Source of the DNA: Clostridium sp.
GTDB lineage: Bacteria > Bacillota > Clostridia > Clostridiales > Clostridiaceae
Assembly (NCBI GenBank): GCA_012511315.1
Contig: JAAZGI010000005.1
Span: 1 to 13,312, forward strand
DNA length: 13,312 nt
Reading direction: 5' to 3'
Below are positions 6,786 through 7,902 of the stretch, one piece after another. The translations under genes and the position numbers were made by a program. Each line of letters starts with the position of its first letter. The first letter of the stretch is position 1. The notes below the pieces were generated by a model that saw nothing but the letters and a program-made list of their open reading frames with translations, made no database searches and was not told where the DNA came from.

Positions 6786-7134
6786 GTGTGCTGAGTATGT
6801 CAGATGATCGCTGCTATTAATTTAGGAGAGGAAAGTCCGAGCTCCGTAGGGCAGGGTGCTGGGCAATTCCCAGTGAGGGTGACCTTAAGGATAGTGCAAC
6901 AGAGAGATACCGCTGATCGTAAGATTAGTAAGGGTGGAAAGGTGAGGTAAGAGCTCACCAGCATACTGGTGACTTTATGGCTATGTAAACCCCACCTGGT
7001 GCAAGGCCGAATAGAGGGACATATGGAGCTGCCCGTTCCGTCCCTGGGTGTGCCGCTTGAACCTGTAAGAAATTACAGGTCTAGATAGATGATCATTTAA
7101 TACAGAACTCGGCTTATAGACTTACTCAGCACAC
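6786..7134 (+). ncRNA. rnpB: RNase P RNA, type A
   Basis: Catalytic RNA of ribonuclease P, which removes the 5' leader from tRNA precursors. The universally conserved blocks occur in order: GAGGAAAGTCCGAGCTCC (6828-6845), GTGCAACAGAGAGATACC (6894-6911), GTGCAAGGCCGAATAGAGGG (6999-7018) and ACAGAACTCGGCTTATA (7102-7118). The ends pair as helix P1: GTGTGCTGAGTA (6786-6797) with TACTCAGCACAC (7123-7134), 12 perfect base pairs. The layout and the sequence after the first block (GTAGGGCAGGGTGC) match type A as in E. coli, not type B of Bacillus. This supports a clostridial rather than a bacilli source. Length is about 349 nt, normal. It has its own promoter and terminator. Confidence 0.97.
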
Positions 7135-7172
7135 TAAAATGACTGGCAGATGCCAGTCATTTTAGTTTTTTT
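7135..7172 (+). terminator. Terminator of the RNase P RNA gene
   Basis: A perfect 13-bp stem, TAAAATGACTGGC (7135-7147) with GCCAGTCATTTTA (7152-7164), a four-base loop and a run of seven T (7166-7172). It begins directly at the end of helix P1. Confidence 0.95.
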
Positions 7173-7174
7173 GG

Positions 7175-7283
7175 GTGCGCCCAACATGGGCACCATAAGG
7201 TGGATGATATAAGCCGCATGAATGGAAAGATTCACGTACGGTTCCGTGAGAGCTAGGGATGAAGCTCCCTTGGGCTACTCTAT
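7175..7283 (+). mobile_element. Group II intron relic: 5'-end-like sequence fused to domains V and VI
   Basis: Domain V is recognisable at 7212-7243. AGCCG pairs with CGGTT, the inner stem TGAAT pairs with ATTCA around a GGAAAG cap, and the characteristic two-base TA bulge sits just before CGGTT. Domain VI follows: GAGAGC (7248-7253) pairs with GCT and CTC (7274-7276, 7278-7280), leaving A7277 bulged. That A is seven bases from TAT at 7281-7283, matching the branch-point and AY 3' end of group II introns. GTGCGCCC at 7175 looks like an intron 5' end and can pair with GGGC at 7189-7192. Only about 36 bases separate it from domain V, so domain I, domains II-IV and the maturase gene are gone. 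It lies two bases after the rnpB terminator. It cannot self-splice alone. Domains V-VI are strong; the 5'-end call is inference. Confidence 0.75.
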
Positions 7284-7422: not shown

Positions 7423-7497
7423 ACAAATAACTAAACGTGATACAAGATATAAGTAGAGTTCCTTACATAGCCAGTGCACAGTGAAGGGTTGTTTATA

Positions 7498-7902
7498 TTG
7501 AAAATTAACAGGTCAATTCAGGTATACATAGAACTCATAGTTTTTTCTTTCGTATTTCTGCTTGCAGCCACTATTTTTAAAGACGAGTATTTGTTTGGCT
7601 GGGCTATCCATAACTGGACTTTTTTTCTAATTCTATGTCTCGTTCCGCTATTTTTAGTTTTAATTAATAAACGATTGATTTCAACTTTTATGAGCATTGG
7701 GATTGAGGGCGGACTTTTTATAGGAAATTACCTTGGTGATTATCTAAGAGCTATCAATATAGCTAAAATAACTCCTGAGATCAGTAATCAAGAAATTGCA
7801 AAGCTTCATCTTGACCCTGGATTTTTTATTTGGATTGCTATTATAATAGGATTTGCTATTGTTTCAGTAATAGCCGAATTATTAACGCGGAAAAAGGTCT
7901 AG
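7498..7902 (+). CDS. Unrecognised multi-pass membrane protein
   Basis: I do not recognise this 134-residue protein. It is strongly hydrophobic, with helices at about 10-28, 34-57 and 107-129 and possibly a fourth in the glycine-containing stretch about 66-84 (GIEGGLFIGNYLGDYL). A polar loop (about 85-105) joins the last two, and the protein ends in RKKV, suggesting a cytoplasmic C-terminus. I prefer the TTG at 7498, nine bases after GAAGGG (7483-7488); the frame also opens with GTG at 7474, but that would put the Shine-Dalgarno site inside the gene. It is preceded by an extended -10 and followed by a terminator, so it appears to be a single-gene unit. Codon use and composition look like the neighbouring genes. 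Confidence 0.6.
   Translation: MKINRSIQVYIELIVFSFVFLLAATIFKDEYLFGWAIHNWTFFLILCLVPLFLVLINKRLISTFMSIGIEGGLFIGNYLGDYLRAINIAKITPEISNQEIAKLHLDPGFFIWIAIIIGFAIVSVIAELLTRKKV

Follow-up and report, generated by a model that had tools for sequence, protein, structure and literature searches.

A 109-base element behind rnpB of a Clostridium sp., probably the remnant of a collapsed group II twintron

Just behind the gene for the RNase P RNA (rnpB) of a Clostridium sp. lies a stretch of 109 bases that begins and ends like a group II intron and has no intron body in between. From which intron, or introns, did its two ends come, and how were they joined? The element was studied in a window of 13,312 nucleotides (the whole stretch of DNA analysed), which is contig C63 of an assembly of 510 contigs that is 87.65% complete. 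Its parts and neighbours are listed below; "outer" denotes an intron type that settles behind terminators and "inner" a second type that in relatives is nested within the first.

6792..7132, plus strand: rnpB, bacterial RNase P RNA class A (RF00010, 295.9 bits), the neighbour supplying the insertion site
7133..7172, plus strand: intrinsic terminator of rnpB, a 15-pair stem (7133–7166) with a T-run to 7172
7175..7191, plus strand: GTGCGCCCAACATGGGC, the start of a terminator-seeking group II intron of IIC type, from the class-genome pattern, the T-run upstream and the comparison with locus L050
7191/7192, plus strand: putative deletion joint, where outer 5' end switches to inner-intron sequence
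7192..7211, plus strand: end of an inner maturase gene (CCA TAA, 7193–7198, proline and stop) and linker to domain V, with a motif common to the inner intron of G005
7212..7243, plus strand: inner-type domain V, three of its pairs being non-standard, from the RF00029 alignment and locus comparison
7244..7274, plus strand: linker, then inner-type domain VI, from RF00029, alignment and fold
7275..7283, plus strand: CTACTCTAT, the 3' end, with last base T and A7277 as candidate branch point, from the sequence and the 3'-end counts in relatives

Between the T-run of the terminator and the GTGCG at 7175 there are only the two bases GG, as the sequence-only reading of this DNA had it. The element finishes in AT (7282–7283), and both termini fit the group II end consensus given in the accessible text of PMC4028801, 5' GUGYG and 3' AY. 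The Rfam model of group II intron domains V and VI (RF00029, Intron_gpII) matches positions 7209–7283 over its full length with 43.5 bits (gathering score 40, E 6.4e-6), which bears out the earlier placement of domain V (AGCCG...CGGTT) and of domain VI behind it; the 3' end with A7277 likewise stands. The score is just over the cut-off; related introns mostly score 48.8–67.2 bits, with a few matches at 40.5–47.9. In the alignment to the model, the three non-standard pairs of domain V are the outermost one, a lower-stem C-A and the one that closes the terminal loop; domain VI contains one more. The element looks decayed. The proposed domain V–VI structure is recovered by the covariance model, while free folding of the single sequence is unremarkable, both for the 109 nucleotides (z -0.94, with 39 of 200 shuffles equally good) and for a 79-nucleotide fold (z -1.39, 17 of 200).

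Domain V starts 37 bases behind the 5' end. Domain I is absent from the element, the 13-kb window containing no Rfam D1–D4 match, and so is a maturase gene: there is no open reading frame of at least 60 amino acids, only the proline-stop remnant. Further along the window, an open reading frame of 142 amino acids (7474–7902), membrane-like by eye, lies between the element and the next small frame; no obvious counterpart of it was seen by eye in the 420 bases near the rnpB 3' end of the same-genus genomes G001 and G002.

At the 5' end, GTGCGCCCAACATGGGC conforms to the pattern GTGCGCCCRRCATGGGC. Of 391 genomes of the class, 31 contain this pattern, among them the element's own, and the reversed-pattern control has none among the matches listed. 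A genuine intron start at this place, as proposed from the sequence alone, is thereby confirmed. When both strands of the window are scanned with an IIC-type consensus that we typed ourselves, the site at 7175 has one mismatch and the next best sites have five. The exact 17-mer with AA is known from this site alone among the loci examined. Loci with this type of 5' end sit behind terminator-like stems (read by eye), and a T-run lies just upstream in 34 of 36 distinct loci, counted with the window excluded, in agreement with the earlier suggestion of an IIC-like site. The label "IIC-type" is given here on the terminator site and on the character of the IIC domain V, and does not stand for a match to a class-level profile. 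Class C group II introns insert behind rho-independent terminators, according to the available parts of PMC8919778 and PMC4424553. The element thus has the 5' end and the site of an IIC-type intron; its domain V, AGCCGCATG..., is not of that type when set against CCGCCGTGTACCG... of the intron on contig C246.

In the element's own genome the pattern is found at seven places, on contigs C59, C63 (the element), C184, C185, C246, C293 and C424. The copy on C246 is a long intron with an IIC-type body, matches to D1–D4 and to domains V–VI and a maturase of 465 amino acids, and those on C59, C184 and C185 are IIC-type introns running off contig ends. Two are stubs, retaining about 90 bases on C293 and about 20 on C424. 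A further stretch, C485:19-95 (L006), matches RF00029 with 43.8 bits in the genome scan, yet is not listed by cmscan of the same stretch. Elsewhere, eight of 25 IIC-type 5' ends behind terminators (L130, L132, L135, L144, L152, L158, L163 and L164) run into unrelated DNA within about 20–115 bases; neither an RF00029 match nor an exact IIC 3'-end motif, sought over 1500 bases or as far as the locus extends, accompanies them. Such loss of the 3' side is unlike what is expected of reverse transcription starting at the 3' end. A 5S rRNA gene lies shortly ahead of another locus, L133 (G172, C4), whose IIC-type intron has both ends and, at about 530 bases, is too short to accommodate a maturase gene.

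The remainder of the element leads to a different intron type. The best match to positions 7192–7280 is the inner intron of a genome of the same family, G005 (Clostridium sp. UBA701), with 82% identity over 89 bases; this intron also ranks first of 71 in similarity to the 3' part of the element (identity 0.80). The sequence ACCATAAGrTGrATGATA is common to the element and the G005 inner intron (L009/L016/L050, of which L016 and L050 are one contig). In G005 the maturase gene (..FIP*) finishes with ACCATAAG, which lies as far from domain V as it does in the element.

Inner-type introns were collected by scanning with three maturases (set A1), which gave 262 relatives, of which 80 were kept; 75 loci were used after five duplicate copies were dropped (L060, L061, L063 and L064 from Singulisphaera, L100 from Paraglaciecola). 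A rule for domain V located it in 69 of these 75, missing L057, L073, L083, L085, L086 and L103. For the 71-row identity comparison, seven loci with mis-set domain V (L054, L056, L065, L078, L084, L109 and L121) were taken out of the 69 and nine other loci added, L053 being entered with a corrected domain V start. Four inner-type loci (L012, L014, L051 and L052) match RF01999 (D1-D4-2). The 5' ends recognised by rule in 55 inner-type loci most frequently read GTGTGCCAC (17), GTGCGCCAC (10), GTGTGCTGT (5) and GTGTGCCGC (5), and of the 53 recognised 3' ends 51 finish in C and two in T.

Over the 700 bases that precede the maturase gene, the 17-mer pattern is present in none of the 69 loci (59 of them with at least 600 bases available). 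In the 150 bases before domain V, the best match to the 17-mer is 12 of 17 (five mismatches). The edit distance of these stretches to it is 4–7, with 4 in one locus, versus 4–9 for shuffled sequence; a distance of at most 5 occurs in 19 of 69 loci versus 206 of 1380 shuffles, i.e. the real stretches are somewhat nearer than the shuffles. IIC-type 5' ends have 0–2 differences from the 17-mer, and no inner-type stretch comes near that. Because the 17-mer is absent both from the inner-type 5' ends and from the stretches preceding domain V, the element unites the ends of two intron types. Of the internal deletion that had been proposed, the loss of the body with retention of the ends holds; the ends come from two intron types and not from one intron. 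The element's own assembly yielded neither an inner-type maturase nor an intact nest, its only reverse transcriptase match being IIC-type.

Relatives contain both types in one place. There, introns of the second type sit within IIC-type introns, exactly between domains V and VI. The 5' joint GGTGGTG/GTGTGC is present in four loci, L014 (a Peptoclostridium plasmid), L050, L051 (Aquibacillus) and L052, where the second intron begins directly after the IIC-type domain V (CGGTGGTG/GTGTGC); the 3' strand of domain V in the IIC-type introns seen terminates in GGTGGTG. The 3' joint ACTYGAC/TGAGAGG, followed by the outer domain VI, is found in ten loci (L014, L043, L044, L046, L048, L050–L053 and L168), nine of which end the outer domain VI in CTACTCGAT/T and one, L168, in CTACTTGAT/T. 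Among the 69 loci of set A1, four contain the TGAGAGG joint. As a pattern, the 3' joint occurs at five places in four of 391 class genomes and its reversed control at two places in two other genomes, so a match is weak by itself; all five places were tied to intron sequence by reading. In the nest of L050, in G005, the outer 5' end GTGCGCCCAGCATGGGT starts at locus base 24, upstream of an outer maturase gene of 472 amino acids, and differs from the element's 17-mer in two of 17 letters. With this fitting outer end and the best inner match, a single relative of the same family holds both ends of the element. The nested loci are not always the nearest to the 3' part of the element, ranking 1, 3, 7, 8, 12, 19, 23 and 38 of 71.

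Nests have also collapsed elsewhere. In L048 (G183, contig C33, around 178060–178141, minus strand), the start of an outer IIC-type domain V is fused to an inner domain V; an IIC-type body with D1–D4 matches, a frame-broken maturase and the inner followed by the outer domain VI are retained. This locus shows a second, independent collapsed twintron, and that such collapse happens. L168 (G106, C40) is a decayed remnant with only the end of the inner domain V, the inner domain VI and the outer domain VI.

Three further loci may be recorded here. In L089, from a metagenome-assembled Desulfuromonadaceae genome outside Bacillota, an inner-type intron occupies the same joint of a more distant IIC-like intron. 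At the end of L045 (G144, C75), a Shine-Dalgarno-like stretch and a start resembling that of the inner maturase, MENSKPYK (by eye), abut domain V; this is probably an inner-type intron copy with its reading frame deleted. In L053, from Metabacillus, the Rfam pemK RNA model (RF02913) matches positions 2667–2764 with 55.2 bits. The nested maturase gene begins a few hundred bases further on, and intron RNA is what one would expect at this place.

We consider it likely that the element is the dead remnant of a collapsed twintron, which is the best explanation of the observations: two ends of different intron types point to an intron within an intron that collapsed, rather than to a single collapsed intron. 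Site and sequence suggest that the first step was the insertion of an IIC-type group II intron behind the rnpB terminator. A group II intron of the other type, as seen in relatives, would then have entered this outer intron between domains V and VI. A deletion would have brought outer base 17 up against the final codon of the inner maturase. In L014 these two points lie about 3.6 kb apart, which would be the length lost from a nest of the same architecture. A second loss would have removed the outer domain VI, possibly when the CTACTCGA repeats at the ends of the two introns recombined. The inner CTACTCGAC and the outer CTACTCGAT end alike, so that recombination between the ends would drop the outer domain VI and leave a T. 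What remains would be the outer 5' end, the inner domains V and VI and perhaps the outer 3' end. The last base of the element, T, agrees with the outer introns seen (..GAT/T), and on this one base the 3' end may be of outer origin. Parts of two intron types are joined in the right order, any outer part after the inner one being confined to at most the last nine bases. Lacking domain I and a maturase, and with a damaged domain V, the element should neither splice nor move.

This explanation draws on the site and the exactly fitting 5' pattern, both of IIC type, the inner-type 3' part, the nests in relatives and the parallel in L048. Counting against it, the own genome has no intact twintron, although the assembly is incomplete and broken inside IIC-type introns; the missing outer domain VI calls for an extra loss; T ends also occur among the inner-type introns (two of 53); and the exact 17-mer with AA is seen only here. 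Two independent events would look similar, namely a 3'-truncated IIC-type stub, like those on C424 and C293, and an inner-type 3' fragment that arrived later alongside it. IIC-type stubs are indeed common: nine of 25 loci with at least 200 bases downstream were scored as having no IIC body after 100 nucleotides, and eight remain as stubs once the ORF-less intron L133 is set aside. Yet inner-type introns are known to reside within IIC-type ones, and a direct joint of exactly these two types would be a coincidence, which makes this course of events unlikely. It is very unlikely that the element is a plain 5'-truncated inner-type intron whose start, GTGCGCCC, is a chance look-alike derived from the C-terminus of the maturase (..FAHWA). 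Most bacterial group II intron copies are truncated, according to the accessible text of PMC4028801, some maturase ends read CGCCCACTGGGC (L015), and the stretch before domain V is, as noted, slightly nearer to the 17-mer than shuffles are. However, the 69 inner-type introns never fall below five mismatches in 17, or below an edit distance of 4 (reached in one locus), and the element starts exactly where IIC-type introns start; on the mismatch and edit-distance comparison a maturase look-alike was rejected as the 5' end.

Copy number bears on the two other alternatives. The element is single-copy in its own genome, where the 118-base stretch across the joint matches the assembly once. In two overlapping sets, one of 57 relatives and one of 390 other genomes of the class, no second copy was found; the matches in five of the 57 and seven of the 390 (at E 1e-6) are intron 3' ends of 73–82% identity. 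A pattern combining the 5' end with a nearby domain V has no match in a collection of 84,980 genomes or in the IMG/VR viral contigs, divergent copies being able to escape it since exact key bases were demanded. The several copies at different sites that would mark a non-autonomous mobile intron were thus not encountered. A minimal intron mobilised by a maturase made elsewhere, as the sequence-only reading had considered, would account for the two ends being kept; an IIC-type maturase gene is present in the genome, and mobilisation of ORF-less introns in trans is known (PMC2882425, in the part available). Against this stand the single copy with none in relatives and no pattern match, the absence of domain I and the non-standard pairs in domain V, and a minimal mobile element was discarded on the copy and pattern searches, leaving this idea extremely improbable. 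An assembly chimera that fused two intron repeats is suggested by contigs C59, C184, C185 and C485, which start or end inside IIC-type introns, but the shared outer end, 17–18 bases, would be too short for usual assembly overlaps and the stretch across the joint has its one assembly match; we regard a chimera as highly improbable. The gene rnpB was found in all 17 of the 57 relatives in which it was searched for, and the element is absent from the 420 bases near its 3' end in all of them, including G001 and G002. On these 17 genomes a conserved RNA linked to rnpB was rejected, which agrees with the earlier view of an insertion. The exact empty site could not be drawn, because the terminators of rnpB differ among the relatives.

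Twintrons and internally deleted introns are already known, as the available parts of PMC4424553 and PMC2882425 describe. The element resembles class C introns in its 5' end sequence and in its position right behind a rho-independent terminator (PMC8919778, PMC4424553, both in part), and differs from them in that everything past base 17 is missing and domains V–VI are of another type. Like the twintrons TeI4/TeI3 of Thermosynechococcus and those of Methanosarcina, it would descend from a group II intron nested in another (PMC2882425, PMC4424553, in the accessible text); here the nest has collapsed, its two members belong to different types, and the site of the inner one is the joint of domains V and VI. 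It shares an internal deletion with internally deleted introns, but the deletion here would join two different introns. In size and in the keeping of its ends it is like the group III introns of Euglena, which have about 90–120 nucleotides and sometimes only domain I and domain VI motifs; those are excised with trans factors and without domain V (PMC4424553, as far as available), whereas the element keeps domain V, is intergenic and gives no sign of splicing. Going by its listings, the literature searched, which takes in little of the subscription journals and parts of the other sources, has no paper on a collapsed twintron or on a non-IIC intron at the domain V/VI joint of an IIC intron; a prior report is possible. 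Twintrons were removed early on in one published intron pipeline (PMC4028801, available part), and another was unable to detect the outer intron (PMC8919778, likewise).

The element illustrates a fate of nested mobile introns that can escape intron surveys, in which the front of one ribozyme class is fused to the catalytic end of another. Tentatively, there may be a group II lineage that is specialised on parasitising IIC-type introns, mostly those of Bacillota, and homes to their domain V/VI joint, an idea put forward as possible and not as probable. Its nests would collapse repeatedly into hybrids with the domains V–VI of the parasite, most of them dead, while some that retain a body, of the kind seen in L048, could exchange catalytic domains without losing the ability to splice. 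The relic behind rnpB itself probably does nothing; more attention than the relic is deserved by the recurrent, site-specific nesting at the domain V/VI joint of another ribozyme.
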